Shown piece by piece: positions 5,586-21,208 of a DNA stretch of 64,000 nt. The notes beneath the pieces were generated by a model, which worked only from the letters and a program-made list of their open reading frames with translations, made no database searches and had not been told where the DNA came from. The first letter of the stretch is position 1, and each line of letters starts with the position of its first letter. Both the position numbers and the translations under genes were made by a program. Origin of the DNA: Bacteroidota bacterium (GTDB taxonomy: Bacteria; Bacteroidota; Bacteroidia; B-17B0; Aurantibacillaceae); assembly GCA_029237825.1 (NCBI GenBank), contig JAQZBQ010000009.1, positions 124,001-188,000 on the forward strand. The letters are read 5' to 3'.

Positions 5586-6449
5586 ATGCGTTATAGCTTT
5601 TCAGGGCACGAATCATTTCATTGCAGACATTTATGGCTTAAAAAGGGGTATGATTTTATAAATAATGGGAAATCATTCTCAGATGAATCGGCTGTTTTAG
5701 AATTAGGAGTTGGTAAGAATATGGTTAACTCTATTCGGTTTTGGATGAAGGCATTTAACATTTTAGATGAAAAAGACAGTATTACTCCTTTGGCAAATAG
5801 GTTATTTAATGATCGAAATGGTTGGGATAAATATATTGAAGATGAAGCAACTTTATGGTTATTACATTATCATTTGGTAAAGAAGAGTCACGCATCAACT
5901 TACAATATGATTTTTAATGAATTTCGTAAAGAAAAAATAGAATTCACGAGAATCAATTTTGAAAATTATGTACAACGCAAATCTGATGAAATAGGTTTTG
6001 CAATTAATAAAAATACAATAAGAGATGATTTTGATGTGTTTCTTAAAATGTATTTACGCCCAGACTCCCAGTCCAAAGATAGGGATGATTCATATTCCGG
6101 TATATTATCGGAACTTGAATTTGTTCAAAGTATTGGCCGTGGGGAAAATAAATATTTTGTAATTGAAAATTCTGAACGTCCAGAAATTCCTGATGAAATA
6201 ATTTTGTATTGTATTTTGGAAAATGGAAATTTTGAATCTTCACTAAATCTTAGTTCCATTGAGCAAGAATATGATAGTGTCGGTTCAATATTTGCCATAA
6301 ACCGTTCGGGGCTATTTAATAAAATAGAAGGAATTACTGAGAAGTTTAAGAAAGAAATGCATTTTTCAGATCATGCAGGAGTTCGAGAATTACAATTTAA
6401 AACAAAACCCGATCCATTAACCATTTTAGAAAGATACTATGCAAACTAA
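5586..6449 (+). CDS. sspB: DUF4007 protein, SspB-like DNA nickase of phosphorothioation
   Basis: 287 aa from the ATG at 5586; a TTG 9 nt earlier is less likely as a start. The N-terminus RYSFSGHESFHCRHLWLKKG is the hallmark of DUF4007. In the Ssp system of single-stranded DNA phosphorothioation, the DUF4007 protein SspB nicks DNA so that sulfur can be placed in the backbone. It is the first gene of a seven-gene plus-strand operon and overlaps the ATPase gene by 11 nt (translational coupling). About 250 bp of AT-rich DNA upstream should hold the promoter; no certain -33/-7 pair is visible. The name rests on the domain and on the neighbouring sspC, sspD and sspA. Confidence 0.8.
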   Translation: MRYSFSGHESFHCRHLWLKKGYDFINNGKSFSDESAVLELGVGKNMVNSIRFWMKAFNILDEKDSITPLANRLFNDRNGWDKYIEDEATLWLLHYHLVKKSHASTYNMIFNEFRKEKIEFTRINFENYVQRKSDEIGFAINKNTIRDDFDVFLKMYLRPDSQSKDRDDSYSGILSELEFVQSIGRGENKYFVIENSERPEIPDEIILYCILENGNFESSLNLSSIEQEYDSVGSIFAINRSGLFNKIEGITEKFKKEMHFSDHAGVRELQFKTKPDPLTILERYYAN

Positions 6450-9400
6450 GTATAATGTCTCCGTAAACATACAGCGTGATGCTAACAGGGATATTCATTA
6501 TATCCCTACACCTAATGCGAATCAGGTAATTAATCAAATATCGAATGATTTCAAGAAAGGGACTAGGTCATTTACTATCGTTGGTTCATATGGTACTGGA
6601 AAATCTTCTTTTCTATGGGCATTACAGCAAAGTTTAAATAAAAAGAAGAAAGTATTTGATGTTAATTTATTAGTTAACCCTAAAGTAGATTTTATAAATA
6701 TTGTAGGCTCTTACGACTCTATTCGAGAAGTTTTTGCTGATGAGTTTAGCGTAAAAGTTAATAGAAACCTAGCCCAAAATATTTTATCAGAAGTATATAA
6801 TCGTTACCATGATTTAGGAAAAAAAAATCCGCTTTTAGTTATTGTAATTGATGAGTTTGGTAAATTTTTGGAATATGCTTCACAACATAATCCTGAAGAA
6901 GAATTATATTTTATTCAGCAATTATCTGAATTTGCGAATAATGATGATCACAACATAATATTACTTACAACAGTTCATCAAAATTTTGATGCCTATTCAA
7001 GTTCATTATCAAAAGAGCAGAAATCAGAATGGACCAAAGTAAAAGGACGTTTTAGAGAAATTACCTTCAATGAGCCAGTGGAGCAATTATTATTTCTGGC
7101 AGCGAAACACATTGAAGAAAGTAAACTAGAAAAAATCAATGAAAAGGACTTTAATAAGTCAATAGATATTTTCACGAAAACGAAAGCGTTTAATATAACT
7201 GAACGTTATGTGGAAAGTATTGCAGAGAAATTGTATCCGTTGGATTTAACAGCAGTAAACATCCTTACATTAGCATTACAGCGTTATGGCCAAAATGAGA
7301 GATCGTTGTTTTCTTTTTTGGAGTCTACTGATCATACTGGGATAGCTGTATTTAACTCAAAAGAAAACCCATTTTATAATATTTCTAATGTTTATGATTA
7401 TTTGATATATAATTTTTATTCATTTTTGAACTCAAAGAATAATGAAGATTATAATGCATGGTCTTCCATTACCTCAGTTTTAGAAAATGTTGATAGTATT
7501 TTTCAAAAGAATTTGTCTGGTTATGTCAAATTAATCAAAACTATTGGACTGTTAAATATTTTTGCTTCGAAGGGTGCAAACTTGGATAGAGCTTTTGTAG
7601 AAAATTACGCAAAAGTATGTTTAGGTATTTCTAAACCTGGTGAGTTTATTGATGATTTAGAATCCCATAAACTTATCATTTATAGAAAATATGATAAACG
7701 ATTTGCTCTTTTTGGAGGAACGGATTTAGATATCCCTGCGGCTTTAATTGCTGCAGGAAATAAAGTAAATGATATTACTGATATTACTACTTTACTTAAA
7801 AAATATATTGATTTGCCTCCTGTAATGGCAAAGGAGCATGCATACAAAAAAGGTGCTCCTAGGTTATTTGAATATCATGTTTCTGATATGGCTATCGACA
7901 TTGAGCCAAGGGATGAAATAGATGGCTTTATTAATTTAATCTTTAATGAAAAGAATATAAAAGAAGAAATTGAGAAAAAATCTAAATTGTGTAAGGAGGC
8001 TATACTATTTGGATTTTATAAAAACACTAAAGTAATTAAAGAGTTACTTTTTGAAATTGAAAAAACTCAAAAAGTAATTGAGGAGAACTTGGATGATAAA
8101 GTTGCAAAAAGAGAATTAACAAACATTTTACAGCACCAAAAAAATCTTTTGAACCATAAATTACACAATAATTTCTATTCAAATGGAAATGAAATTCTTT
8201 GGTACTTTAAAGGAAAGGATGTCACAGATAAAATTATTAGTAAGCGCTCGTTTAATAGTTTTCTTTCAGAGATAAGTAATAAAATTTATTCTTTAGCCCC
8301 GGCATTTAATCACGAGCATGTTAATAGACATAAAATATCACCGTCTATTCATAATGCAAAAAAGAAATATTTTGTTGCTCTTACTCAGAATTGGGGACAA
8401 TCTGATTTAGGGTTTAGCACTGAAAATTTTCCCGCTGAAAAAACAATTTACCTGGCATTACTTAAACAAAATGGACTGCAACCGGAGCCAAATCAAGTAA
8501 ACTTTAATCCTCAAGTTCCAGCAGATAGTACTTTTAGACCATTGTGGGACGCCTCAATTGAATTTTTAAATAGTGCAAAAACAAATCGTAGAAGTATTTC
8601 CGAATTCGTAGAACTGTTATCAAAACGCCCTTTTAAATTAAAACAGGGATTAATAGATTTTTGGATACCAAGCTTCCTTTTTATAAAACGTGACGATTTT
8701 GCTTTATTCAATAATACCAATGGGTATATTCCTGATATAGAAGATGAAACCTTGGAACTTATTCCAAAAGAGCCAGAGGAATATGAAATAAAAACTTTTG
8801 ATGTTGAAGGAGTAAAATTAGACGTATTTAATTCATACAGAGTTTTATTAGATCAACCATCTAAGGGGAAAGTAAGTAATCAAACATTTATTGAGACCAT
8901 AAAGCCTTTTATAACGTTTTATCGTGATTTACCGGAATATTCTAAAAACACCAAAAGGCTTAGTAAAGAAGCATTAGCCATTAGAGAAGCTATTTCTCAC
9001 GCTAAAGATCCTGAACACATATTTTTTGAAGACTTTCCTCAAGCGTTAGGATATTCTGTTAGTAAATTACAGGAATCAAAGGAAAATTTGGCTGCGTATA
9101 CTAAGAAATTACAGAAGGCCATCAAAGAGCTTAGAACCTCATACGAAGAATTGATAAGGAGATTTGAAAGCTTTATTCAAGATGATATTATTGGTGAAGA
9201 AATTCCATTCGATGAATATAAAGAGGCACTTCAAGAAAGGTATAAAAAACTTCGTGTACATTTATTATTGCCCCAACAAAAAACCTTCATATTACGATTA
9301 AATTCTGCCTTAGATGATCGCAAACTATGGCTGGATTCAATTGCACAAGCTACTATAGGTAATACCCTTAAAAAGCTGAAAGACGAAGAGGAACCTGCGC

Positions 9401-9666
9401 TTTTTGATAGATTTAAAAGTTTTATTTTAGAACTTGATAGTTTAACAGCCCTTTCCAAATCAGATTTTGTAGAAGAAAGAGAAGATGTAATTGGGTTGGA
9501 GATTAGTACTTTTAGTGAGGGAGTAAATAAAAAAATTGTACGCCTTCCAAAAAACAAAAGGAAAGATGTAAAATCTTTGGAAGAGTTAATAAAGCAAAAA
9601 ATGACCGGTGACAAATCTGTAAATATTGTTGCTTTAACTAATGTTTTAAAAGAGTTATTTAAGTAA
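6439..9666 (+). CDS. sspC: Large P-loop ATPase, SspC-like
   Basis: 1075 aa. An N-terminal AAA/P-loop domain shows Walker A GSYGTGKSS (residues 49-57) and Walker B VIVIDEFGK (134-142). TTVHQNFDAY further on is probably sensor 1. The rest is a long, mainly helical region with coiled-coil-like stretches (~520-570, ~880-930). In Ssp systems SspC is the ATPase that works with SspB and SspD on the DNA, and this gene sits exactly between them. It overlaps sspB by 11 nt and sspD by 1 nt. The alternative, a general P-loop ATPase of a BREX-like system, is less likely because no pglZ, brxC or methylase gene is present. Confidence 0.8.
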   Translation: MQTKYNVSVNIQRDANRDIHYIPTPNANQVINQISNDFKKGTRSFTIVGSYGTGKSSFLWALQQSLNKKKKVFDVNLLVNPKVDFINIVGSYDSIREVFADEFSVKVNRNLAQNILSEVYNRYHDLGKKNPLLVIVIDEFGKFLEYASQHNPEEELYFIQQLSEFANNDDHNIILLTTVHQNFDAYSSSLSKEQKSEWTKVKGRFREITFNEPVEQLLFLAAKHIEESKLEKINEKDFNKSIDIFTKTKAFNITERYVESIAEKLYPLDLTAVNILTLALQRYGQNERSLFSFLESTDHTGIAVFNSKENPFYNISNVYDYLIYNFYSFLNSKNNEDYNAWSSITSVLENVDSIFQKNLSGYVKLIKTIGLLNIFASKGANLDRAFVENYAKVCLGISKPGEFIDDLESHKLIIYRKYDKRFALFGGTDLDIPAALIAAGNKVNDITDITTLLKKYIDLPPVMAKEHAYKKGAPRLFEYHVSDMAIDIEPRDEIDGFINLIFNEKNIKEEIEKKSKLCKEAILFGFYKNTKVIKELLFEIEKTQKVIEENLDDKVAKRELTNILQHQKNLLNHKLHNNFYSNGNEILWYFKGKDVTDKIISKRSFNSFLSEISNKIYSLAPAFNHEHVNRHKISPSIHNAKKKYFVALTQNWGQSDLGFSTENFPAEKTIYLALLKQNGLQPEPNQVNFNPQVPADSTFRPLWDASIEFLNSAKTNRRSISEFVELLSKRPFKLKQGLIDFWIPSFLFIKRDDFALFNNTNGYIPDIEDETLELIPKEPEEYEIKTFDVEGVKLDVFNSYRVLLDQPSKGKVSNQTFIETIKPFITFYRDLPEYSKNTKRLSKEALAIREAISHAKDPEHIFFEDFPQALGYSVSKLQESKENLAAYTKKLQKAIKELRTSYEELIRRFESFIQDDIIGEEIPFDEYKEALQERYKKLRVHLLLPQQKTFILRLNSALDDRKLWLDSIAQATIGNTLKKLKDEEEPALFDRFKSFILELDSLTALSKSDFVEEREDVIGLEISTFSEGVNKKIVRLPKNKRKDVKSLEELIKQKMTGDKSVNIVALTNVLKELFK

Positions 9667-10769
9667 TGGAAAAAATAAGACATGTATTAGGTATTTCTGG
9701 CGGCAAGGATAGTGCGGCTTTAGCTATATATATGTTTGAAAATTATCCTCAATTAGAACTAGATTATTATACCTGTGATACCGGAAAAGAATTACAAGAA
9801 ACATATGATCTGATTGATAATTTGGAAAATTATTTAGGGAAGAAAATTGCATTACAAAAAGGGACAAAGAATAGTCCTGAATTACCTTTCGATCATTTCT
9901 TAAAAATATACGGAGGTTATTTACCTTCATCAATGGCTCGCTGGTGTACAAAAAAATTAAAATTAGAACCTTTTGAAGATTATGTAGGCAATGATCCTGT
10001 TGTTTCTTATGTGGGGATTAGAGGGGATGAAGAAAGAGAAGGTTATATTTCCCGAAAGAGTAATATTCAATCTATTTTTCCCTTTCGGAAAAATATATGG
10101 AGTGAAGATGTTATTGTTAAGGCTCTTGCTAATGCAAACATTCCTAATCTTATTAATTATCTATCTGAAATTGATACTAATAATAAAAAGGAAAGATTTG
10201 AAGAATTGTTATTGCAACCCCTTACAGGTAGCCATAATCAGCAAACTAAAATGAATTTACTTTTAGATACTGATATAAAAGTTTTTAATAGATTAATTTT
10301 TCGTTTCCTTAAAACTACAGATTATCCTTTGTCAAAAGTTGATGAATTTCCTTTGATTGAAAATGATCAAATCTTAGTTAGGGCCGATATTTTTAAACTT
10401 CTTGAAAAAAGTGGTGTTGGTATTCCTGCTTATTATAAACCAATTGAATTTGAAGTTAACGGAAAAAAAGCTACTTATGCTCGTAGCCGATCAGGTTGCT
10501 TCTTTTGTTTCTTTCAACAGAAGATAGAATGGGTGTGGTTGTTTGAACAGCATAATGATCTATTCTTAAAAGCGCTTGAATATGAGAAAGATGGTTATAC
10601 CTGGAGTGAGGAACCACTTGCTGAATTAATGAAGCCTGAAAGAATACTAAAAATTAAAGAGGACTATATTAAACGATCAGAAAAAAATAACAAGACAAAA
10701 AAATCATCATACTTATTAGACATTCTATCTGATTCTGAAGGAGAGGGATGTGCGGCTTGTTTTATTTAA
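9666..10769 (+). CDS. sspD: PAPS-reductase/ATP-pyrophosphatase, SspD-like
   Basis: 367 aa. The PP-loop SGGKDS is at residues 11-16. The family cysteines are present: C94 (ARWCTKK), the pair in SGCFFCFF, and the C-terminal pair in EGCAACF. In DndC and SspD such cysteines bind an iron-sulfur cluster, and the PP-loop adenylates the substrate before sulfur transfer. Sulfur would come from the cysteine desulfurase at 15066-16208. The start overlaps the sspC stop as TAATG. All expected residues are visible, so it should be active. Confidence 0.85.
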   Translation: MEKIRHVLGISGGKDSAALAIYMFENYPQLELDYYTCDTGKELQETYDLIDNLENYLGKKIALQKGTKNSPELPFDHFLKIYGGYLPSSMARWCTKKLKLEPFEDYVGNDPVVSYVGIRGDEEREGYISRKSNIQSIFPFRKNIWSEDVIVKALANANIPNLINYLSEIDTNNKKERFEELLLQPLTGSHNQQTKMNLLLDTDIKVFNRLIFRFLKTTDYPLSKVDEFPLIENDQILVRADIFKLLEKSGVGIPAYYKPIEFEVNGKKATYARSRSGCFFCFFQQKIEWVWLFEQHNDLFLKALEYEKDGYTWSEEPLAELMKPERILKIKEDYIKRSEKNNKTKKSSYLLDILSDSEGEGCAACFI

Positions 10770-10779
10770 ATAATTAGTT

Positions 10780-11895
10780 ATGGATTATATTTTTAAAGAG
10801 TATTCTATTAAGGAAATTTATGATTTAGTAGAAAATAAACAAATTGATTTGAATCCTTCATATCAACGAAACTTTATTTGGTCTCCTGATAATCAAAATG
10901 AACTCATCGATACAATTTTAAAAGGATATCCATTACCAAGCTTTTTTTTATATAAGAAGCCCGATGGGAAATTTGAAATGGTGGATGGACAACAAAGGAC
11001 CACCACAATTTATAGATTCATACAAGGTTTGATAACCTCTTCTAAAGCTTTTAATAAAATTAATTTTAAAGATATTGACCAAAAGAAGTTTCTTGAATAT
11101 AACATCCCAGTTATAGAAATCACAAAATTAGCTACAGAAGATTCATTAAAGGAGTTTTACGTATTAATAAATAAAAAAGGAGTACATCTGAATCCTGCGG
11201 AAGTAAACAAATCGGAATTTCATGATACAAATTTTTTAAAATTATCAAGCGATTTGTTATCATACCAGAACTTAATAAATCTAAATCTATTTTCTGAATC
11301 TACTTCAAGAAGGATGAACGACAGGGCTTTTATTGAAGAATTGTTAGCCTATTTAATTTCAGGAGTAAAAGATAAAAAGAAATCTGTGGAAGTAGTATTT
11401 AAGGATGATATTTCGGAAGAAGAATATAGACTGTTAGATTCTAAGTTCAAACAAATAATTGATAAGATTGAAATACTTAACTCTATAGAACCTCTTTCAC
11501 AAACAAGATATAAACAAAAAAATGATTTCTTTACTCTCTTTTCATTTATTAATGAAAATCTTAATGAAGATATCAATACTTTAAAATATCAATATCGTAT
11601 TTTATTAGTACTAGATGGTGTTGATAATGAGGGAAGGCAGATTATTAGACCATCTAATGAAGACAGTGCTGCATTAAAAGAATATGCTAATAATTGTATA
11701 ACACAATCAAATTCTAAGAAAGCTAGGGAAAATAGATTGAATTTTTTCAATTCGATCCTAAAAAATAAATCAACTGCAAACAATGAGACTTTCTCAGATG
11801 TTCTTGGTTATCTTTCTTTATTATTGGGTAATGAGAAAGTCAAGCTTAAAAAGATTGATGAGTTTGAATTACTTGATGTAGAACGACTAAAGTAA
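10780..11895 (+). CDS. DUF262 protein without a nuclease domain (SspE/GmrS-like N-terminal half)
   Basis: 371 aa. DUF262 features: NPSYQR at residues 25-30 and DGQQR at 69-73, followed by a helical body and a basic C-terminal segment (KKARENRLNFF). In SspE, the usual restriction partner of SspBCD, DUF262 is an NTPase that senses phosphorothioates and is fused to a DUF1524/HNH nuclease. No HNH-type His/Asn pattern is visible here and the protein ends at DUF262 length. It may therefore sense or signal rather than cut. It starts 10 nt after sspD, in the same operon, and has a paralogue at 12965-14005. Confidence 0.75.
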   Translation: MDYIFKEYSIKEIYDLVENKQIDLNPSYQRNFIWSPDNQNELIDTILKGYPLPSFFLYKKPDGKFEMVDGQQRTTTIYRFIQGLITSSKAFNKINFKDIDQKKFLEYNIPVIEITKLATEDSLKEFYVLINKKGVHLNPAEVNKSEFHDTNFLKLSSDLLSYQNLINLNLFSESTSRRMNDRAFIEELLAYLISGVKDKKKSVEVVFKDDISEEEYRLLDSKFKQIIDKIEILNSIEPLSQTRYKQKNDFFTLFSFINENLNEDINTLKYQYRILLVLDGVDNEGRQIIRPSNEDSAALKEYANNCITQSNSKKARENRLNFFNSILKNKSTANNETFSDVLGYLSLLLGNEKVKLKKIDEFELLDVERLK

Positions 11896-11902
11896 TTTGT
11901 GT

Positions 11903-12931
11903 ATGAATTTCAATTTCCCTGATAACAAAATTGTATCGGAAGGTACAATTCAAAACAGATTAAATATTTGGCCAAATTACGAACCTATAGATATCCTCAA
12001 TCCTTTGGATAACCTTATAGAAATTGACGGCACAAGTTATTATTTTACATATTTAAATGGGGCTGATCCAGGTAATAAAGGAGGACATTCAATTATTTTA
12101 AATCTTTATGCAAGCCAGAGTATTGAGATTGAAGAATTGGAATATGGTATTCCAGACTTAATTTTAAAAGTATCAAAGTATAAGAAATCTCAAAACCCTG
12201 AATTTATAAATCAGAAAGAGAAAAGATTCTTAAAAGAAATTGAAGCTTTAAAAGCCTGTAATAACCAAAATTTTCAGAACGTAATAAAAATATTTCATTC
12301 TGGTGTATGTAAAGTAAAAAATCAAAAAAACACCAGGTACGATGAGCATCTGTTTTATACTATGGAGTATGCAGAATGTGATTTGAAGAGCTATATTGAA
12401 GCCAATCACCATAATTTAAGTATAAATGAAAAGGTTAATTTATGCATCAGTCTTTGTGAAGGATTAAAAGAATTATTTTCCCTTGGGTATTATCATAGAG
12501 ACATAAAGCCTGATAATATTTTCATGATTGATGATTATTGGAAGATTGGTGACTTGGGGTTAATTGGAGACAGAAATAACGTAAATGAGATAGACAAGAT
12601 ATCAGAACGAGTTGGCCCTATCGGTTGGTTGTCACCAGAAGCAATGAACAAATATCTATGTGAAGAGAATGATTTTGTTTATGATCACAGTTGCATAATT
12701 GATCATCAATCTGACATATTCCAATTAGGTAAGGTTTTTTGGTACATTTTCCAGCATAATGCACCAATTGGTTCTATACGTGAGAATGATTTTTTATGTA
12801 AAGATTCTCGTCTTTATTCTATATTTAGAACAATGCTAAATCATTCTAAGTATAGAAGATATAAGGATATTGAGGAGGTCATTAAACTACTGAAAATTAT
12901 CCAACTTGACCTTTTAAGAAGGGCAGCGTAA
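11903..12931 (+). CDS. Eukaryotic-like Ser/Thr protein kinase
   Basis: 342 aa from the ATG at 11903 (an in-frame TTG lies 6 nt upstream). Kinase motifs: probable ATP lysine K89 in LILKVSK, acidic helix KEIEALK, catalytic loop HRDIKPDN (198-205), DLG (217-219) in place of DFG, and SPEA (244-247) in place of APE, then the DIFQLGKVFW helix. No transmembrane segment or sensor domain is visible, so it is a soluble, near-minimal kinase. It starts 7 nt after the first DUF262 gene and precedes the second. The catalytic residues look complete, so activity is expected; its substrate is probably another operon product (inference). Confidence 0.8.
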   Translation: MNFNFPDNKIVSEGTIQNRLNIWPNYEPIDILNPLDNLIEIDGTSYYFTYLNGADPGNKGGHSIILNLYASQSIEIEELEYGIPDLILKVSKYKKSQNPEFINQKEKRFLKEIEALKACNNQNFQNVIKIFHSGVCKVKNQKNTRYDEHLFYTMEYAECDLKSYIEANHHNLSINEKVNLCISLCEGLKELFSLGYYHRDIKPDNIFMIDDYWKIGDLGLIGDRNNVNEIDKISERVGPIGWLSPEAMNKYLCEENDFVYDHSCIIDHQSDIFQLGKVFWYIFQHNAPIGSIRENDFLCKDSRLYSIFRTMLNHSKYRRYKDIEEVIKLLKIIQLDLLRRAA

Positions 12932-12964
12932 AATAAAGTATAAACTGTAATATTGAAATAAAAT

Positions 12965-14005
12965 ATGAAAGCAAATGTAGAAATTTGGACTGTCCAGGAC
13001 TTGTTTGATAATATTGAAAACATTAATAAACAACCTAAATATCAAAGAGGAGCTGTTTGGAAAGATGCTAAAAGAAGTTTATTAATTGATTCTATGTTGA
13101 GAGGGATTGATCTTCCTAAATTTTATTTGCATAAAAAAAGTAGAGGTGCATTTACATATGAAGTTGCTGATGGGCAACAAAGGATGGATGCTATAATCAA
13201 ATTTAAGAAGGATAAATTACCATTAAGAGAAGACAGTGTATGGGGATTAGATTTAAATCTTATAAACGGGGCTAAGCTTGGAGGATCGACTTACTCTCAA
13301 TTAAGGAAAAATTATCAAGAAAAATTTGATAATTATCATGTTACTGTTGCAATTATTGAAGAGGCAAGTAATTCTGAAATTAGAACTTTATTTGGCAGGT
13401 TGCAATTGGGAGAGACATTAAAACCGGCAGAAAAAAGAAATTCATTAATTAGTATTGTTGGGGATCATATTGATTTAATGGCTTTGACCCATGATTTTTT
13501 TAGCCAAAGTAAAATCAAAGATGAAAGATATAATCGCCAGGATTATTTAGCTCATATATTTGCTCTTATATGTTATCAAAACACTTCGGATTTGAAAGCT
13601 GAACTATTACAAAAACTGTATTTAAATGATGAGTTTAAATGGACACAAAAAACTATAAAATGTATAGTTGATGTGTTAAATATCATGAAAGAAATAGATC
13701 AAAGTTCTAAAAAGCGAATTATAAATAAATTTAGTTTCATAGATATATTTTGGTTTTTGTATAAAAAATATGATGGTTATTCAAGTGTTGACGTTGATCA
13801 ATTTGCCAGCAAATATGACGAATTAGAAACAAACCGCTTAGTTAATTATAAATCATCAGATGCATTGCTTCGAACAGGGAAAGCGGCAGATAAAGATTTA
13901 TATGAATATATTATGGCTTATCGTTATGAAGGCGCAAGAACTAGCAGTATTGAGAAAAGAAATGTTATTTTTGGGAAGAAATTCAGCAAATATTTATTAG
14001 CGTAA
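12965..14005 (+). CDS. Second DUF262 protein without a nuclease domain
   Basis: 346 aa. YQR at residues 26-28 and DGQQR at 69-73 lie at the same positions as in the DUF262 protein at 10780-11895, but the rest has diverged, so this is an ancient paralogue. The C-terminal 130 residues are helical and basic, with no HNH or DUF1524 signature. It lies 33 nt after the kinase and overlaps the SIR2 gene by 1 nt (TAATG), which ties it to that effector. It may couple an NTP-dependent sensor to the SIR2 protein (inference). Confidence 0.75.
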   Translation: MKANVEIWTVQDLFDNIENINKQPKYQRGAVWKDAKRSLLIDSMLRGIDLPKFYLHKKSRGAFTYEVADGQQRMDAIIKFKKDKLPLREDSVWGLDLNLINGAKLGGSTYSQLRKNYQEKFDNYHVTVAIIEEASNSEIRTLFGRLQLGETLKPAEKRNSLISIVGDHIDLMALTHDFFSQSKIKDERYNRQDYLAHIFALICYQNTSDLKAELLQKLYLNDEFKWTQKTIKCIVDVLNIMKEIDQSSKKRIINKFSFIDIFWFLYKKYDGYSSVDVDQFASKYDELETNRLVNYKSSDALLRTGKAADKDLYEYIMAYRYEGARTSSIEKRNVIFGKKFSKYLLA

Positions 14006-14865
14006 TGGGATTTGATAATAGTAAGTTTCCAAAGGAGGCTATAGAAAATTTTAAAAAGAAGCAAGCCTGTTTTTTTGTTGGCGCTGGTTTATCAATTGGC
14101 GCAGGATTTCCATCATGGACAGGGCTTATTAATAAATTAATTGTCGAGGTTGAAAACCTACCATGGTATAATAAGGATAAAGTAGCTGAGTATAAACAAT
14201 TGGCAAATGATCAAACCAAGTTTTTATTTTTAGCGGAAGATCTTAAAAGTGAATTAGGTGGAAAGTTTAATGATTTATTAGGCGAATGGTTTGGGAAACC
14301 TGATGCGCAACCGACAAAGAATCACGAGCTTCTGGTAAGTGTTCCTTCCGATTTAGTATTGACAATTAATTATGATAGGTTGATTGAAAATGCATATAGT
14401 CAAGTTAAAGGACATTTTCCTAGAGTATATACATACACGCAAGAGGATAGTAGGCAAGCTGCAAATCTATTTTGGAAACAGGAATTTTTTATATTAAAAG
14501 CTCATGGCGATGCATCTAAAAATCCCCTTGGATTAATTTTATCACAAAAAGATTATCGAAAAACTTTGTATCGAGAAGCTGGTTATAGAAGTTTATTACA
14601 AACGATTTTTACATCCAAATCAATTTTTTTTATTGGAGTTTCTTTAAATGATCCTGAATTTATACAGCTAATGGATTTTTTACATGAATCTTATCATGGA
14701 GGTGGGCCTGAGCATTATGTTTTGTTAGAAGAGTCTAATATACCTCAAACTATAATTAGAAGATATTTAGAAGATTTTAAAATACATACTATAACATATA
14801 AAAATGATTCTGGGACGCATGCAGAAATAACTGAATGTTTAGAATTTATTAAAGCGTCTTCGTAA
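14005..14865 (+). CDS. SIR2-family protein, probable NADase effector
   Basis: 286 aa, essentially one SIR2-like domain. Seen: GAGLS at residues 26-30 (NAD-binding loop), INYDRLIE with N122 and D124, ILKAHGD with the catalytic-type H167, and FFIGVSLNDPEF near residues 210-220. This is the SIR2-like subtype found in Thoeris, DSR and related systems, where it destroys NAD+ after infection. No separate sensor domain is attached, so activation must come from partners. It is the last gene of the operon, co-translated with the second DUF262 gene and convergent with the sspA unit 21 nt away. Confidence 0.8.
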   Translation: MGFDNSKFPKEAIENFKKKQACFFVGAGLSIGAGFPSWTGLINKLIVEVENLPWYNKDKVAEYKQLANDQTKFLFLAEDLKSELGGKFNDLLGEWFGKPDAQPTKNHELLVSVPSDLVLTINYDRLIENAYSQVKGHFPRVYTYTQEDSRQAANLFWKQEFFILKAHGDASKNPLGLILSQKDYRKTLYREAGYRSLLQTIFTSKSIFFIGVSLNDPEFIQLMDFLHESYHGGGPEHYVLLEESNIPQTIIRRYLEDFKIHTITYKNDSGTHAEITECLEFIKASS

Positions 14866-14886
14866 GTGATTAACTTTAGATACTTC

Positions 14887-15063
14887 CTATTTGAGAATAA
14901 TTAATTTTAGAATACTTTTTTTTGAATAGAAATAAGCGTTTCTTTCCTTTTTAAATTCAAGTTTTCCTGCAATACGGAAATGTGCGAGGTCACAGTCAGA
15001 TATTTTTAGTTCTTTCATCGTTTCTCGGCTGGTTAACCAAATATTTTCAGCTTCTTTTTTCAT
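14887..15063 (-). CDS. 58-aa helix-turn-helix protein downstream of sspA
   Basis: The ATG at 15063 lies 2 nt after the sspA stop on the same strand, so the two are coupled. The product reads as an excisionase/MerR-type winged HTH: WLTSRETMKELKIS as the helix-turn-helix, then FRIAGKLEFKKERNAYFY as the wing, and a basic Lys-rich end. It is below common length cut-offs and easy to miss. It may regulate the phosphorothioation genes or help recognise DNA (inference). Confidence 0.65.
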   Translation of the reverse strand: MKKEAENIWLTSRETMKELKISDCDLAHFRIAGKLEFKKERNAYFYSKKSILKLIILK

Positions 15064-15065
15064 TT

Positions 15066-16208
15066 TTAATGAATAAGCTGCAAGCTTTTTATTTGAATAG
15101 TAAGTTCAGAAATTGATTTATCAATATCTTCAAAAGTGTTAAACTTGCCCAGGCTTAGGCGAATAGAACCATTTGCTTTATTACTTTCTAAGTCCATTGC
15201 TTTTAATACATGAGAAGGTTCTATTAAAGAAGTGGTGCACGCTGATCCATTACTGACAGCAACAGTCTTTAATTTACCTATTAAAACGTCAGAATCTAAA
15301 TTTGGAAAATATATATTAGAAACGTTGTAGATTCTTCTTTCAGCATTTCCATTAATGGTGGCGCCTTCAAGTTTCAATAATTCTTTTTCCAGTTTATCTC
15401 TAAGTGACTTTATTTTATTAGAATTCTCATTGAGTTCTTCTAATGCAATTTCTGATGCTCTTCCTATCCCAACTATTGCAGCTGTATTTAATGTCCCACT
15501 TCGTAATCCATTTTCATGCCCACCACCGTGAATTTGAGGAGATATATAATGTGAAGCTTTTTGGGAATAATATAAAGCTCCAATTCCTTTTGGAGCATAA
15601 AATTTGTGTCCGGAAAGAGTCAAAATATCTATTTTTAATTCTGATACATTTATTGAAATTTTGCCAACTGCTTGTGTAGCATCTGTCATAAATAAAACAT
15701 CTGCTTTCTCGCAAATTTCGCTTATGGCTTCGATATTTTGAATAACACCAGTTTCATTATTTACCCACATTACGCTAATTAATAATGTATCTGCTCTTAT
15801 TGTTTGTTTTAATAGGTCCAATTCAAGTATACCGTCCTTTTGAACGGCCAAATATGTTATTTCGAAACCAACACTCTCCAAATATTTACATGTATCTAGG
15901 ATTGCTTTATGTTCGGTTTGGAGGGTAATAATGTGTTTTTTTGGTTCAGAGCTAGAAATGAAACTTTTTAAAGCAAGATTAATTGCTTCTGTGGCTCCTG
16001 AAGTAAAAACAACACGTTTTGGATTTGCATTAATTAAATCAGCGACTTTCAATTTGGCTATATCTATTTCTTTTTTTACCTGGACTCCTAAAATATGATT
16101 ACTTGACGCATTAGCGAACTGATCCTTAAGAAAAGGCATCATTTCATCCAAAACTCTTGGGTCAATGGGAGTTGTTGAATTATTATCTAAATAAATAATA
16201 TTGTTCAT
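15066..16208 (-). CDS. sspA: Cysteine desulfurase (IscS/NifS family), SspA-like
   Basis: 380 aa, normal for the family. It starts IIYLDNNSTTPIDP, has the PLP-binding lysine K202 in LSGHKFYAPKG, and the catalytic C324 in SNGSACTTS, with GGGHENGLRSGTLN between them. The enzyme takes sulfur from L-cysteine as a persulfide. Beside sspB, sspC and sspD it is expected to supply SspD. A housekeeping IscS role is less likely because no iscU or related gene is present. It lies on the strand opposite the rest of the module, so modification requires two transcripts. Confidence 0.85.
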   Translation of the reverse strand: MNNIIYLDNNSTTPIDPRVLDEMMPFLKDQFANASSNHILGVQVKKEIDIAKLKVADLINANPKRVVFTSGATEAINLALKSFISSSEPKKHIITLQTEHKAILDTCKYLESVGFEITYLAVQKDGILELDLLKQTIRADTLLISVMWVNNETGVIQNIEAISEICEKADVLFMTDATQAVGKISINVSELKIDILTLSGHKFYAPKGIGALYYSQKASHYISPQIHGGGHENGLRSGTLNTAAIVGIGRASEIALEELNENSNKIKSLRDKLEKELLKLEGATINGNAERRIYNVSNIYFPNLDSDVLIGKLKTVAVSNGSACTTSLIEPSHVLKAMDLESNKANGSIRLSLGKFNTFEDIDKSISELTIQIKSLQLIH

Positions 16209-16299: not shown

Positions 16300-17106
16300 T
16301 TATTCCCAGGTTTTTCCATTTAATAATTCTGCAATTTGTTTTGAGGACATGCCTTTTTTATAAGCAGGAATATCGTCAAGCCAGAAATACTTTTTAGATC
16401 TTAATGCGTAATCTGAACTTTTAATGTAGTGGGTTTGATTAAACTCATCAACTAAGAAAAACTTATGCCCTTCATCAAGATTATAATACTTTGTATTTTC
16501 AATAACACCTTTTATTCTGTTATATTCATCAGTAGTTAAAGTGGAAATGTCAAACCCATATGTGCCAATCAGCTCTCCATTTTTATAATCACAATACGCA
16601 ATTTTTTTTACAGTACCAACTGCAAATATTTCACCGCTGGCATAAAGCCCAATATATTTAAATGGTGAGTTATGGTTTCGGGATGTAGGATCATAGTACA
16701 AATTATATTTTAAATTTTCTTGTCGAGATGTATTAGCTGTAAAAGCCAGCAGTGTAGTTTCTTTAATGTCAATATTTTCTGAAGAAACTTTTTTCTCTCT
16801 TGGCTCTTCTATTTGATGTGTTATCCTTTTTAACTGGTCAGATATATATTGTTTCTTTAGGATCTCTTTTTCTCCATCACTAATATTTTTTTCACTGTCG
16901 ATATTTTTAAGTGCATCGGTAGTTTCTTCTGTCAAAGCTTCAACTTTTATTTCATTAAGTTTTGCCTTAAATCCTCCGAATTCAACTTCCTTTATATCTT
17001 TGAGTCGAATGATTATTTGTTTTCTGAATATTAATACTATAGTCATAACGACAGTTGGCCATATTAACATTCCAATGAGGTCGATTATTAGTTTTGCTTT
17101 TTCCAT
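16300..17106 (-). CDS. Membrane-anchored protein with a C-terminal beta domain, unknown
   Basis: 268 aa. A hydrophobic N-terminus (residues ~7-28, IDLIGMLIWPTVVMTIVLIF) acts as a membrane anchor with no cleavage site. A charged helical linker (~30-110) follows. The C-terminal domain (~125-268) begins around KYIGLYASGEIFAVGTVKKI, a strand pattern like the small EVE/PUA-like barrels in some nuclease-associated proteins. It is 91 nt upstream of sspA on the same strand, so co-transcription is possible. Function unknown; a membrane-localised sensor or effector of the island is one possibility. Confidence 0.55.
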   Translation of the reverse strand: MEKAKLIIDLIGMLIWPTVVMTIVLIFRKQIIIRLKDIKEVEFGGFKAKLNEIKVEALTEETTDALKNIDSEKNISDGEKEILKKQYISDQLKRITHQIEEPREKKVSSENIDIKETTLLAFTANTSRQENLKYNLYYDPTSRNHNSPFKYIGLYASGEIFAVGTVKKIAYCDYKNGELIGTYGFDISTLTTDEYNRIKGVIENTKYYNLDEGHKFFLVDEFNQTHYIKSSDYALRSKKYFWLDDIPAYKKGMSSKQIAELLNGKTWE

Positions 17107-17121
17107 TATTGGGCTGTTAAG

Positions 17122-17511
17122 TTACTTCAAAAATTTGGTTTCTAAAATCGTGGCGAGGCGTAATCTGGCGCAAGATAGTTGTTTTTTGATTATTGGGTCG
17201 CTTTTTTGGATGTAGGTAACGTTTATGTCGTGGCCGTCGTAATCGGGGACGAAGGGTAAGTATGTTCTTGACTCATTTACCCAGGAAAGAATGTCGATTT
17301 TTTGAATCGTCTTAACGTCTTTTTCGGAATATGTTTTTATGAGGTTAGACGCAAAACTAATATCCTGAATGGATTTGACAGTATAATGTTTTTTTAGTGA
17401 TAAAAAGAAATATATAAAAAAAACACCAGTGAAGTTTTTTGCCATAGCCCACGGGGCCTTAACATATACATCAATTTTTAATAAAATATTTAACCAGAGA
17501 TTTTTCTGCAA
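17122..17511 (-). pseudogene. C-terminal remnant of an S1/P1-type nuclease
   Basis: Up to 129 codons, with only a TTG at the 5' end. The last ~70 residues match the C-terminal part of S1/P1 zinc nucleases: KTIQKIDILSWVNESRTYLP, then PIIKKQLSCARLRLATILE at the end. Full S1/P1 proteins are about 260-300 residues, with a signal peptide and a Trp/His/Asp zinc cluster at the N-terminus. None of that is present, and the first 45 codons look unrelated. It is therefore probably a truncated gene left by rearrangement at the island edge. Confidence 0.6.
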
Positions 17512-17579: not shown

Positions 17580-18530
17580 ATGAAAACTTCTAAAGAGGCC
17601 TATGATGCCTTTATTTTCCATTGTAAATATGAGAAAAAATTGAGCTCCAAAACTATTAAAGCTTATGAAACAGATTGTATACAATTTAAATCATTTGTAA
17701 AAAGTAAATTTAAACATGAGACATTCATTACCGATATTAATAAAGATATTTTAAAATTATTCTTCTATCACCTGAAAGAATTAAAACCTAAAACATTAAA
17801 AAGAAAAATAGCGACATTGAAGGCTATGTTCAATTTCTTGGAGTATGAGGATGAAATTTTGATCAATCCTTTTAGAAAGATGAAAGTTAATATTAAAGAA
17901 TGTATTGTTTTACCATCAGTTATGTCACTTTTAGAAGTAGAGAAGGTTCTACTTATTGCTTCAAATGAAATTACTTTATGTAAACCTAAAACGTATACTT
18001 ACTTTGAGAAATTGAGACACCTGACAGTACTTGAATTGCTTTTTGCAACAGGAACAAGAGTATCGGAGATTTGTAACTTAAAAATAGAGGACGTAGATTT
18101 AGTTACTGGTACAATTAGAATAATGGGAAAGGGGAGCAGGCAACGAATTGTTCAAGTATGTCATCCGGATGTTCTTGAAATTTTAAAACTATACCGTTCT
18201 AGACTATCAAAAAAATTAATTAAGAAAGGTTATTTTTTTGTTAATAGGTTGGGGACCAGATTATCAGAACAATCAATACGTATAATGATTAAAAACTATT
18301 CTTCTAAAGCTAAAATTAATAAGAAAATAACCCCTCATACTTTTAGACATTCATTTGCAACACTTATGTTAGAACAGAACGTGGATATAAAGTATATCCA
18401 GGTAATTCTGGGTCATAGTTCAATTTCTACGACTCAAATTTATACTCACATTAATAATCGCAAGCAACGCGAGATTTTAGCACTTAATCATCCCCGGATA
18501 TTAATTAATTCTGTTTTGAATAAAGGATAA
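17580..18530 (+). CDS. Tyrosine recombinase (XerC/XerD-like)
   Basis: 316 aa. An N-terminal SAM-like core-binding domain (residues 1-90) is followed by the catalytic domain with the complete set R160 (TGTRVSE), K184 (GKGSR), H253 and R256 (HTFRHSF), H279 (LGHSS) and nucleophile Y288. It should be an active strand-exchange enzyme. It is divergent from the nuclease remnant and lies 17 nt ahead of the PLP-enzyme gene, so the two are co-transcribed. Because it borders the defence island it may have mobilised it; no att repeats were identified. Confidence 0.85.
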   Translation: MKTSKEAYDAFIFHCKYEKKLSSKTIKAYETDCIQFKSFVKSKFKHETFITDINKDILKLFFYHLKELKPKTLKRKIATLKAMFNFLEYEDEILINPFRKMKVNIKECIVLPSVMSLLEVEKVLLIASNEITLCKPKTYTYFEKLRHLTVLELLFATGTRVSEICNLKIEDVDLVTGTIRIMGKGSRQRIVQVCHPDVLEILKLYRSRLSKKLIKKGYFFVNRLGTRLSEQSIRIMIKNYSSKAKINKKITPHTFRHSFATLMLEQNVDIKYIQVILGHSSISTTQIYTHINNRKQREILALNHPRILINSVLNKG

Positions 18531-18547
18531 CTAAATATTATCAGTTA

Positions 18548-19753
18548 ATGGACCACGATATTGAATGGTTATTTGAAGAAGTTTACAAGATCAAAAGAGA
18601 AAACACCCGTGATGTACAATTTCTATCTGATTGGGATGTTAAAGGTGAAAGCCCTATTGAATTTAGTAGTCTTTTGAGTCAAGTTTATAATGATTCAAGT
18701 GTAAGCTCATTAAAATACAATTACGCATATGAGCAATTTTCCTTAAAGAATCAGATATTAGAATTTGCAAATACAGATCAGTCATTAAAATTACTGGAAA
18801 CCGAAATTACCATTACACCATCAGCTACAATTTCTCTATATCTATGTGCGCAGGCACTAGCTGCTCTAGATATAAAAAGGATTCTGATTATCACACCGGC
18901 GTATTTTTCAACACATGAATCATTTGATAAAGCCGGTTGTCATGTTTTTTATTACCATCTCAAAGACGATCACAACTTGCAATTGGACTTAAATGAAATA
19001 GAATCCTTAATAGAACAACAATACATTCAGGGGATTGTACTTACTGACCCAGTTTACAGTGCCGGAATTGAATTTAATCTTGAAACATACACTCAACTTT
19101 CTGAAATATGTAATAAAAATGATCTCTACTTCGCTGTTGATTATTCCTTAGGCGGTCTTAACTGGAATGAGGAAAATATGTTTGTGTTAAATACAGATAA
19201 ACTTAAAATTCTGAAGAAAAATAGAAAATTTCTATTTATTGATACGCTATCTAAGAGGCTTCTAATGAACGGGATTAAATTTTCAGTAATTATAGGAGAT
19301 GAAGATATAGTTGACAGGATTGATAGAATATCAGAAATCGTTTATGGTGGATTAAGTGCCGCCCAATGTTTTCTAATAAATAAACTTTATATGAAGGAAA
19401 ATCAATGGCTTATTACATTAATGTGTAAAAGAAATATTGAAGCCACGAAAGAAACATATAGACAAATTAATTCATTGCTTTTAGGGACTCAGTTTGAATT
19501 AGCTGAGACTAACAGCGGATATTTTTCACTGATAAATCATAAAAAAATCAGTCTTCAAGACATAGATACAAAGGAGTTTTCACTAACTTTATTGAAAGAA
19601 TGTAATATATTGGCCATTTGTAAAGATCGATTTACCTATTTTCAGGAAAACAGATTTGGATTCAGGATAAACCTGAATAAAAAAAAGGAGGATTTAATCT
19701 TTCCTATTAGGCAATGCATTGGGATAGATTACAGCCGATTTTATAAGAGGTAA
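18548..19753 (+). CDS. PLP-dependent aminotransferase class I/II-like protein
   Basis: 401 aa with the fold-type I pattern: ITPSATISLYL near residue 90, LTDPVY at 165-170, D198 in FAVDYS (pairs with the pyridine nitrogen), and the Schiff-base lysine K236 in IDTLSKRLLMNG. The substrate cannot be read from the sequence. It forms a two-gene operon with the recombinase upstream, an unusual partner. The last 60 nt overlap the 3' end of the pentapeptide-repeat gene on the other strand. All key residues are present, so activity is likely; the role is unknown. Confidence 0.7.
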   Translation: MDHDIEWLFEEVYKIKRENTRDVQFLSDWDVKGESPIEFSSLLSQVYNDSSVSSLKYNYAYEQFSLKNQILEFANTDQSLKLLETEITITPSATISLYLCAQALAALDIKRILIITPAYFSTHESFDKAGCHVFYYHLKDDHNLQLDLNEIESLIEQQYIQGIVLTDPVYSAGIEFNLETYTQLSEICNKNDLYFAVDYSLGGLNWNEENMFVLNTDKLKILKKNRKFLFIDTLSKRLLMNGIKFSVIIGDEDIVDRIDRISEIVYGGLSAAQCFLINKLYMKENQWLITLMCKRNIEATKETYRQINSLLLGTQFELAETNSGYFSLINHKKISLQDIDTKEFSLTLLKECNILAICKDRFTYFQENRFGFRINLNKKKEDLIFPIRQCIGIDYSRFYKR

Positions 19754-21208
19754 AAGTTTCTCAATATCTTCAGATGTCACATCAGATGTTTTCCCTAGCG
19801 CTTTTTTTGAAAGAAGTTGATATTCCTTTAAATCCTTCATTTTTTCAATTTGATCTCTTCCACCTAACTTTTTGCTAAGGAGTAATGCTTTGGTATCTAT
19901 TCTGTAATCTATTGCCAAGTGAATGGATTCATGTATAGTCTGTCTCGTTACTTTAACAAACGCTAATAGCATTTTCATAAGTATCAGAGCTGCACCTGTA
20001 TACGCAACAATTTCGTATATCAAAGATCCCTTTCTCGTGCCAACCACCTGATACGGAATTCCTTTAACAGAAAGCTGTTTTCCAATATCATCCATTATTG
20101 ATTCAAAATACTTGTCAAATTTCCTTTTATCACTTTCATCAATAGTGATCTCCATTAATATTTGCCTTGTATCAATAGAATTTTCTATAAAATTCATTGT
20201 TAAATCCATCCTTTCAATAAGTGCCTTTAACCGGTTAAGTTTTTCTATAAAAGAAATCTCATCCAGGAAATCCAGATTCGATAATTCAAGGCTCTCAAAA
20301 TAACCTATAATCCTAAAATAATCGGATAAGGATACATATCCCGTGTTAATATAGTATTCGAGAAGCCTGAAAATTTTGTCAAATTGATAGGTTCTTTTTA
20401 GTTGACTCTTCTCTTTAAATAGTCGCTCCGATGCCATTTTTACCAGAGAAAAAACAGATTTCTTTTCGTTATGAAGCAGGTTCTTTTGAATTACTATGTT
20501 TATAGCCTCATAATATCTTCCCTTCTGCATTAATAACTTGAAAAGATTGTCTAATAAATCTGATTGACTTATATCTAGATCAAACACTTTTCCTCTGTAT
20601 TTTAATTTAAGGTTATCGAAAAATTTGCCTTTAAAGAAGTATGAACCTAAATAATCAGCGTCAATAATCACATTTTCAAATTTGCAATCGCTAAAAAAGA
20701 GATTTATTGCAGTCATGTTTGACAGATCAATATTCTTAAATGAAGTTTTTTCAAACTCCACTTCATCCATAGAATTTTTCTCAAAAACACTGTTTGAAAT
20801 TTTACAGTTATAAAATTTGCATTCACGAAACGTATTAACATCAAACTTCGTGTTCTCTATCACACAATTTTTATAAACCAGTTTAATTAATGATGTTGAA
20901 CTAAATGTGGAATTAGTAAAAAAAGATTTTTCAAAGTATGAATTGTATATCTCCGAGAAATTAAATTTCGAATTTTCAAATGTCGTGTTTATAACAGAAC
21001 TATCAATAAAATCTGAATTAGAGAAATTATTACCCTTAAACAACACATCTTGAAACTTTGCGCCTCTAAAATCACTCCGATAAAAAGAAATAGGGGACTT
21101 CCTATCGCTCATATCGAGTTTGCTAAACAGAAAGTCTTGAAAATTTTCCTTTTCTCGTTTATTATTTCCGTCGTCTGCAAAAGTAAATGGTTTAATAATA
21201 CTGTTCAT
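19694..21208 (-). CDS. Pentapeptide-repeat protein with C-terminal membrane-like domain
   Basis: 504 aa. Residues ~40-195 form a run of pentapeptide-type repeats (FRGAKFQDVLF, FSNSDFIDSS, FENSKFNFSE, FKNIDLSN), expected to fold as a right-handed quadrilateral helix. Residues ~205-340 are helical. Near 395-425 a GTRKGSLIYEIVAYTGAALI segment is hydrophobic enough for membrane insertion or a buried helix, followed by a charged helical tail. It is tail-to-tail with the aminotransferase gene (60-nt overlap). Not a simple gyrase-protecting protein, because the repeat is only one third of the chain. Function unknown. Confidence 0.7.
   Translation of the reverse strand: MNSIIKPFTFADDGNNKREKENFQDFLFSKLDMSDRKSPISFYRSDFRGAKFQDVLFKGNNFSNSDFIDSSVINTTFENSKFNFSEIYNSYFEKSFFTNSTFSSTSLIKLVYKNCVIENTKFDVNTFRECKFYNCKISNSVFEKNSMDEVEFEKTSFKNIDLSNMTAINLFFSDCKFENVIIDADYLGSYFFKGKFFDNLKLKYRGKVFDLDISQSDLLDNLFKLLMQKGRYYEAINIVIQKNLLHNEKKSVFSLVKMASERLFKEKSQLKRTYQFDKIFRLLEYYINTGYVSLSDYFRIIGYFESLELSNLDFLDEISFIEKLNRLKALIERMDLTMNFIENSIDTRQILMEITIDESDKRKFDKYFESIMDDIGKQLSVKGIPYQVVGTRKGSLIYEIVAYTGAALILMKMLLAFVKVTRQTIHESIHLAIDYRIDTKALLLSKKLGGRDQIEKMKDLKEYQLLSKKALGKTSDVTSEDIEKLLPLIKSAVIYPNALPNRKD

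Follow-up and report, generated by a model that had tools for sequence, protein, structure and literature searches.

Which response is coupled to phosphorothioate (PT) modification of DNA when the modification genes stand without an SspE-type partner? This question is raised by the window analyzed here, a stretch of 64,000 nucleotides from a Bacteroidota bacterium (GenBank assembly GCA_029237825.1, contig JAQZBQ010000009.1, positions 124,001 to 188,000). Within it, seven co-directional, operon-like genes encode SspB, SspC, SspD, a DUF262 protein (DUF262a), a protein kinase, a second DUF262 protein (DUF262b) and a SIR2-domain protein, and the gene for SspA is convergent with them. Our analysis indicates that the locus is probably an SspABCD PT module with two independent effector cassettes in tandem, each made of a DUF262 nucleoside triphosphatase (NTPase) and a separate effector, the kinase in cassette 1 and the SIR2 protein in cassette 2.

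An earlier, sequence-only reading had listed the parts as a DUF4007 protein, a P-loop ATPase, a PP-loop enzyme, two DUF262 proteins, a kinase, a SIR2 protein and a convergent desulfurase, and this list was confirmed by PADLOC and Pfam, which back the family names of all eight open frames. SspB, SspC, SspD and the cysteine desulfurase SspA, whose joint presence identifies an Ssp modification module, were all matched in a PADLOC scan that covered 10 proteins of the locus, in agreement with the module proposed earlier. Residues C94, C278, C281, C362 and C365 of SspD are invariant in nine of nine aligned rows. The genes are tightly spaced, with 10 bp between sspD and the DUF262a gene, 7 bp between the latter and the kinase gene when its ATG start at 11903 is used, and 33 bp between the kinase and DUF262b genes; the DUF262b and SIR2 genes overlap at 14005, and 200 bp separate the SIR2 gene from the convergent sspA. 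The proposed lack of an SspE-type partner was supported, as these are the only two DUF262 genes over the Pfam cut-off in the assembly and neither product has a DUF1524 match.

To see how such loci are built elsewhere, GTDB contigs were scanned with an alignment of nine SspD proteins, and the best 80 of at least 268 relatives were kept; these 80 loci represent the closest relatives rather than a random sample, and their genes were counted by tblastn within the fetched stretches. In a sample of the phylum, SspD was matched strongly (at E 4e-48 or better) in 21 of 395 genomes, and the 20 loci besides that of the host were fetched, three of which appear identical to loci among the 80 (L043/L057, L044/L087 and L047/L096). 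SspB was recognized in 75 and SspC in 78 of the 80 loci; the five without SspB begin inside the operon at a contig end, and SspC was unrecognizable in L105. As had been anticipated, such effector genes accompany sspBCD in other genomes too, a DUF262-kinase pair occurring in 15 of the 80 loci and a DUF262-SIR2 pair in seven. The seven-gene order is not a conserved unit, as none of the 80 loci has both pairs; the 20 phylum-sample loci contain two kinase pairs and no SIR2 pair. In 72 loci the sequence extends 5 kb or more past sspD; 22 of these carry one of the two pairs, and in 21 of these 22 the pair lies behind sspD on the same strand. The SIR2 pair follows sspD directly in seven of seven loci and the kinase pair in 14 of 15, the exception being L124, where a Pbe set comes first. 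A Dyadobacter locus (L085) is window-like except for the missing DUF262b and SIR2 genes, with sspBCD, counterparts of DUF262a (62%) and of the kinase (59%), and a convergent sspA.

Two further genes were scored in the same loci. A PbeA-like helicase occurs in 36 of the 80 loci and a protein that we call C9 in 14, the two never together in the 80 and 20 loci examined. Among the 15 kinase loci, PbeA was present in nine, C9 in three and neither in three (L072, L075 and L085) within the stretch examined; the seven SIR2 loci divide into four with PbeA and three with C9. The idea that SIR2 is a general replacement for other modules was rejected on these counts, since every one of the seven GTDB SIR2 loci also carries PbeA or C9. 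The window is unusual among SIR2 loci in that neither was found in its genome: the best PbeA match (E 4.5e-6) lies at the level of generic helicases, the model also matching all 14 control genomes, and a C9 search run without a positive control gave no relative. C9 itself (L060, 13133-15643) is a protein of about 820 residues with a weak GHKL-ATPase match and no PADLOC match, often encoded on the strand opposite to sspBCD.

The history of the pairs was examined with two trees. In a tree of 34 DUF262 proteins (L042 was left out, as its DUF262 starts late), the SIR2-linked rows form one group (99/99) with DUF262b inside it, and DUF262a falls in supported groups of 2, 4 and 8 rows that are all kinase-linked; partner labels change three times altogether, which is the minimum possible. 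A quick SspD tree was built from 72 proteins, those of 71 loci and the window, and omits nine of the 80 loci, all of which remain in the counts given above: L058, where sspD is split into two pieces, and eight loci in which the sequence beyond sspD is shorter than 2 kb. On this tree the kinase label changes 13 times against a shuffled mean of 13.8, and the SIR2 label six times against 6.8; by this measure cassette type shows no clustering beyond that of the shuffles. Since the DUF262 lineage follows the effector and cassette type is scattered on the SspD tree, a DUF262 protein and its effector look like a unit that is exchanged as a block behind sspBCD.

In order to avoid selection by SspD, kinase and SIR2 profiles were run over the 395 phylum genomes. 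The kinase profile matched seven genomes at E 1e-20 or better, three of them under 1e-90 (the host, G188 and G385), and all three strong matches are directly behind DUF262a and SspD genes; around the other four kinase loci (best E 1.8e-22), about 1.5 kb of flanking sequence contained neither a DUF262 nor an ssp match. With the SIR2 profile, 25 genomes gave a match at E 1e-10; 27 non-host SIR2 loci were fetched, and over a similar distance of about 1.5 kb all of them lacked cassette DUF262 and ssp matches. The pairing with DUF262 thus marks the cassette type and not SIR2 proteins generally. In one of these loci (L134, genome G255), a SIR2 domain that matches the profile at E 1.1e-56 is in frame with histidine-kinase-like and response-regulator-like sequence, the domains having been assigned by eye. 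A class-wide SIR2 search added no genome.

Plasmids gave a further view of the linkage. Records were ranked by coverage times identity and not by E-value, and we opened the first five for the kinase, the first three for SIR2 and three lower ones. The first five of 97 kinase records are also the first five of 318 for DUF262a; they come from Pseudanabaena, two Sphingopyxis and two Asticcacaulis, and all carry ssp genes, which adjoin the kinase gene in Sphingopyxis and Asticcacaulis. Likewise, the first three of 180 SIR2 records are the first three of 54 for DUF262b (Hymenobacter and two Sinorhizobium americanum), all have sspBCD, and in Hymenobacter these genes are adjacent to the SIR2 pair. The linked records therefore span Bacteroidota, Alphaproteobacteria and Cyanobacteria, and chance co-location is unlikely because SspD matches just 72 of 72,556 plasmid records. 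In Sphingopyxis a DUF262 gene is about 38 kb from the kinase gene, with an insertion-sequence transposase beside the former and a Tn3 transposase beside the latter. Among the lower records, a Stenotrophomonas SIR2 relative (H4) had no ssp match within 9 kb, and no ssp gene was present in the stretches read around a Vibrio kinase (H21) and a Rhizobium DUF262 gene (H50).

Both effectors retain the residues expected of active enzymes. An active Ser/Thr kinase is recognized by the beta3 Lys, the HRD Asp and the DFG-type Asp, and all three are present in the window kinase, which keeps HRDIKPDN and DLG motifs: K91, D202 and D219, the catalytic Lys, HRD Asp and DLG Asp, are invariant in 16 of 16 rows. 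This numbering counts from a longer TTG start at 11897, which is less likely than the ATG; from the ATG, the HRD Asp is the D200 named in the earlier reading, whose other key residues, SspD C94 and SIR2 H167, are equally in place. The top PADLOC match of the kinase is mad6 (E 6e-26), and a viral-contig scan with the kinase alignment returned only five distant kinases. The SIR2 protein has 286 residues and consists of the SIR2 domain only, with a ThsA model match at E 2e-31; its best sequence matches among solved structures include ThsA, KomC and DSR2 (E 5e-25 to 9e-19). The catalytic residues of the SIR2 pocket are an Asn and a His, and N122 and H167, which align with those of ThsA, are invariant in eight of eight rows. 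The protein is a probable NADase, because the kept residues agree with what is known of the SIR2 family. A viral-contig scan with the SIR2 alignment found no relative, nor did any phage record match SIR2.

DUF262a (371 residues) and DUF262b (346 residues) share 24% identity in the alignment. Each matches the GmrSD_N model and the NsnA model of PADLOC (E 7e-31 and 6e-30), which we take to belong to Menshen; the Pfam search assigned GmrSD_N only, with no DUF1524 in either. DUF262a has Y28-Q29-R30 and D69GQQR73, and DUF262b has Y26-Q27-R28 and D69GQQR73. When solved structures were searched by sequence, DUF262a matched BrxU (E 1e-4) and, at E values above 0.02, two OTU proteins, and DUF262b matched none up to E 0.1. 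SspE is described as a DUF262 protein fused to an HNH nuclease domain (PMC9646914); once PT-DNA is bound at a patch that includes Y30 and Q31, GTP hydrolysis at its DGQQR motif increases and the nuclease is released (PMC9646914; PMC13251355). The window is like the SspABCD-SspE system in SspBCD, SspA and a DUF262 protein with DGQQR, and unlike it in that the DUF262 protein stands alone and has a kinase or SIR2 partner.

On this comparison and on the fold alignments given below, the best reading of DUF262a and DUF262b is that they are SspE-like NTPase gates with a separate kinase or SIR2 output. Each would read the PT state of DNA, of nucleotides or of both through its SspE-like N-terminal domain, and its NTP cycle would gate the partner protein. 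Upon infection, the SIR2 partner may break down NAD+ and halt growth, and proteins of the host or the phage may be the substrates of the kinase. The two cassettes might work side by side, in the way that SspE and SspFGH share one SspBCD; for this locus, phage defense, the sensing of PT and the loss of NAD+ are inferred. The occurrence of each pair alone with the tagging genes elsewhere suggests that sulfur tagging can be coupled to responses of the suicide type and not only to the cutting of DNA. A broader proposal, which we advance tentatively and hold with less than even confidence, is a swappable PT effector slot in which a PT-reading DUF262 NTPase is combined with non-nuclease effectors (a SIR2 NADase, a kinase and maybe a nucleoside-deoxyribosyltransferase-like enzyme). 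The DNA-backbone mark would then license metabolic suicide in place of DNA cleavage, and the two cassettes stacked here would form a double safeguard.

A number of observations weigh against the model of two gated cassettes. The window is the sole locus seen with both, and co-operation between them finds no comparative support. In Pseudanabaena, sspBCD lie about 10-17 kb from the kinase pair, where a cysteine desulfurase gene follows the kinase gene, and in Sinorhizobium they lie about 10-14 kb from the SIR2 pair and are convergent with it. The cassette-type SIR2 is rare: the host genome alone was recovered, both in the phylum draw and in the class draw (one of 395 at E 1e-35), and the next best phylum match after the host (E 1.1e-56) is a fusion. 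Kinase-linked rows are not one group on the DUF262 tree (two changes): L045 falls among the long DUF262 rows, and the three distant rows from plasmids are placed on the SIR2 side; the tree also has three long branches and some weak joins. As to the fold, AlphaFold models of DUF262a and DUF262b (mean pLDDT 89.6 and 87.7) align with SspE over residues 1-135 (Z 7.8, root-mean-square deviation 3.4, 126 aligned) and 1-150 (Z 8.3, deviation 3.7, 138 aligned), respectively, but a Z near 8 may reflect nothing beyond a common arrangement; these scores are level with those of ParB CTPases and BrxU, and BrxU was the top match in both searches. The patch tyrosine of SspE is present in 25 of the 30 cassette DUF262 proteins examined, comprising all 24 proteins of the two DUF262 alignments (A6 and A7) and Hymenobacter L182, and is replaced in the other five, by F in L045 and three distant kinase-linked proteins and by W in Sinorhizobium. 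The control drew 30 loci, three of which lacked the PxxQR pattern and were uncounted, and in the remaining 27 control DUF262 proteins the residue was Y in 9, F in 12 and I in 6. The tyrosine was rejected as proof of PT reading, being present in the control set too and absent from distant members, and a Fisher test (24/24 versus 9/27, p 1.7e-7) was not relied upon, as it ignores relatedness and omitted the cassette members with F or W.

Four other explanations were weighed. The tight co-directional row of genes is what would be expected of one integrated seven-gene system, in which the DUF262 proteins sense, the kinase relays or restrains and SIR2 kills. We regard this as very improbable: within the fetched stretches, the kinase pair stands without SIR2 in 15 of 15 GTDB and two of two phylum-sample loci and the SIR2 pair without the kinase in seven of seven GTDB loci, and cassette type is not clustered on the SspD tree. 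The suggestion that the kinase is a relay or off-switch for SIR2 is not supported by these separate occurrences, and the exchange of the pairs as units is the main reason for its rejection. At the opposite extreme, the cassettes could be two unrelated defense pairs that make no use of PT and inserted behind sspBCD because defense genes collect there. They do move relative to sspD, and in Sphingopyxis, Sinorhizobium and Pseudanabaena the pair or parts of it are distant from sspBCD or convergent with them. Such passengers are nonetheless improbable in view of the cassette-type kinase having been found only with ssp genes (three of three genomes and the first five plasmid records), the rarity of SspD among plasmid records, and the same-strand position behind sspD that nearly all GTDB pairs share.

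A role of the kinase pair in regulating the dose or timing of PT modification, with SIR2 as the sole effector, is somewhat unlikely. A gene annotated as DndB lies beside the ssp and DUF262-kinase genes in both Asticcacaulis plasmids, so regulators may gather at this position, and 12 of the 15 GTDB kinase loci hold PbeA or C9, which are possible restriction parts. Against such a role, the remaining three have neither in the stretch examined, and the position of the kinase pair is filled in other loci by gene sets that are themselves possible effectors. Nuclease-based PT restriction might also persist, through a nuclease elsewhere in the genome or one that is unrecognized in the DUF262 proteins; the host genome was not screened for SspFGH or DndFGH, and the C-terminal parts of the DUF262 models, which are helical, lack an assigned function. 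We assign this a low probability, given that the assembly yielded no SspE-type DUF262, no PbeA above generic helicase level and, in the uncontrolled search, no C9, and that neither DUF262 protein matched DUF1524. The model of an SspABCD module with two independent DUF262-effector cassettes remains the one that we prefer.

How do the cassettes relate to described defense systems? Thoeris consists of ThsA, a SIR2 protein with a SLOG domain, and the TIR protein ThsB; here the SIR2 protein is SIR2 only, and no TIR match was obtained among the 10 locus proteins scanned. KomC, the SIR2 domain of ThsA, and DSR2 match the window SIR2 in sequence and share its catalytic N and H, but the partner here is a DUF262 protein, and none of their partner genes was recognized among those 10 proteins. 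The kinases MAD6 of MADS and PglW of BREX are, like that of the window, protein kinases in DNA-modification defense loci. The window kinase differs in being paired with DUF262 and PT modification and is far under the respective NCBIfam cut-offs (29.5 versus 460 and 19.4 versus 990 bits); PglZ and BrxL of BREX type 4 were unmatched among the 10 locus proteins, the rest of the genome not having been searched. PbeABCD is a PT-linked module, represented in many of the relatives' loci and, in the host genome, only by matches to generic helicases. Menshen resembles the window in having a DUF262 protein without DUF1524, but pairs it with a predicted OLD nuclease (PMC10952713). The same publication, a review, lists DUF262 in GmrSD, BrxU, SspE, Menshen, Dazbog and PD-T4-2 and treats SIR2 systems apart. 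SspFGH is a second reported effector set of the same modification and is additive with SspE in one cell (PMC8092258); no SspF-, SspG- or SspH-named model matched the 10 window proteins, and the search for them did not extend beyond these proteins. In a published survey, 2,211 of 2,678 sspBCD loci were without sspE and sspFGH, for which more kinds of restriction partner are one possible answer (PMC8092258). The cassettes are concrete, recurrent candidate partners for such loci, and if the SIR2 pair works as proposed, PT defense would become one more of the systems in which infection is aborted through depletion of NAD+. Among the papers listed by searches of open-licence PubMed Central, which leave preprints and subscription papers uncovered, there was none on DUF262-SIR2 or DUF262-kinase pairs of Ssp loci. 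The locus and its recurrent linkage are real, and the effector cassettes are new within a known kind of system.

The position behind sspD is taken in other loci by different genes. In about eight loci each, and mostly directly behind sspD, we observed a double-GHKL ATPase protein with two unknowns (L053, 11083-15140) and a three-gene set of an unknown, a weakly BrxC/D-like protein and a further unknown (L063, 11108-14711); both sets look like further cassettes. Long DUF262 proteins of 700-750 residues follow sspD in L103 (11139-13238), L129 (11132-13288) and L051 (10200-12449), their C-terminal domain being unrecognized; they were considered as SspE and rejected, as neither a DUF1524 nor an SspE match was obtained with Pfam and PADLOC. 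A small nucleoside 2-deoxyribosyltransferase-like protein of 130 residues is encoded near sspD in four of the 80 loci by tblastn (L071, 11067-12184; L057; L090; L110) and is possibly another nucleotide-directed effector of Ssp loci; in L071, a 241-residue protein without an assigned family is encoded between it and SspD.

Table 1. Genes of the Ssp locus, with positions in the window and the model matches that support each name.
Feature	Positions	Strand	Match
SspB (DUF4007, DNA-binding subunit)	5586-6449	+	PADLOC SspB E 5.4e-112; Pfam PF13182 E 1.8e-77
SspC (P-loop ATPase)	6439-9666	+	PADLOC SspC E 0
SspD, long form, PP-loop/PAPS-reductase-like	9666-10769	+	PADLOC SspD E 3.2e-89
DUF262 protein a, kinase partner (cassette 1)	10780-11895	+	GmrSD_N E 3.9e-25
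Ser/Thr protein kinase (cassette 1)	11903-12931	+	Pkinase E 3.2e-21
DUF262 protein b, SIR2 partner (cassette 2)	12965-14005	+	GmrSD_N E 6.4e-15
SIR2-domain protein, stand-alone, probable NADase (cassette 2)	14005-14865	+	SIR2_2 E 5.1e-24
SspA cysteine desulfurase	15066-16208	-, convergent	PADLOC SspA E 2.6e-155; DndA E 1.5e-153

The host assembly comprises 3.55 Mb in 33 contigs. Apart from the two DUF262 genes of the window, nothing in it exceeds the Pfam cut-off for this family; one more match falls far short (19.2 versus 33.2 bits), and no DUF262 fused to DUF1524/HNH was detected in the assembly at that cut-off. The locus was probably acquired horizontally, because the host alone among the 87 genomes searched in its order has an SspD match at E 1e-20 or better. 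A phage-type integrase gene is located at 17580-18530 of the window. Rfam and tRNA scans of the window gave no match, and promoter-like matches were at about the level of shuffled sequence (69 versus 70.3), as were terminator-like ones (7 versus 4.8).

Upstream of sspA and on the same, minus strand are two genes without an assigned family, at 16300-17106 and 17122-17511; the product of the former has no Pfam, PADLOC or NCBIfam match and shows, by eye, a hydrophobic stretch at its start. A 504-residue pentapeptide-repeat protein is encoded at 19694-21208, also on the minus strand; its match to HalA, the Hailong effector, stays below threshold (36.2 bits versus a cut-off of 250). Farther along, positions 29962-57620 hold giant frames of 2059, 1835 and 3810 residues with a frame of 847 residues among them, and Ig-like (CHU_C associated), BNR, RHS-repeat and PKD matches in three of the four indicate that these are probably surface proteins.

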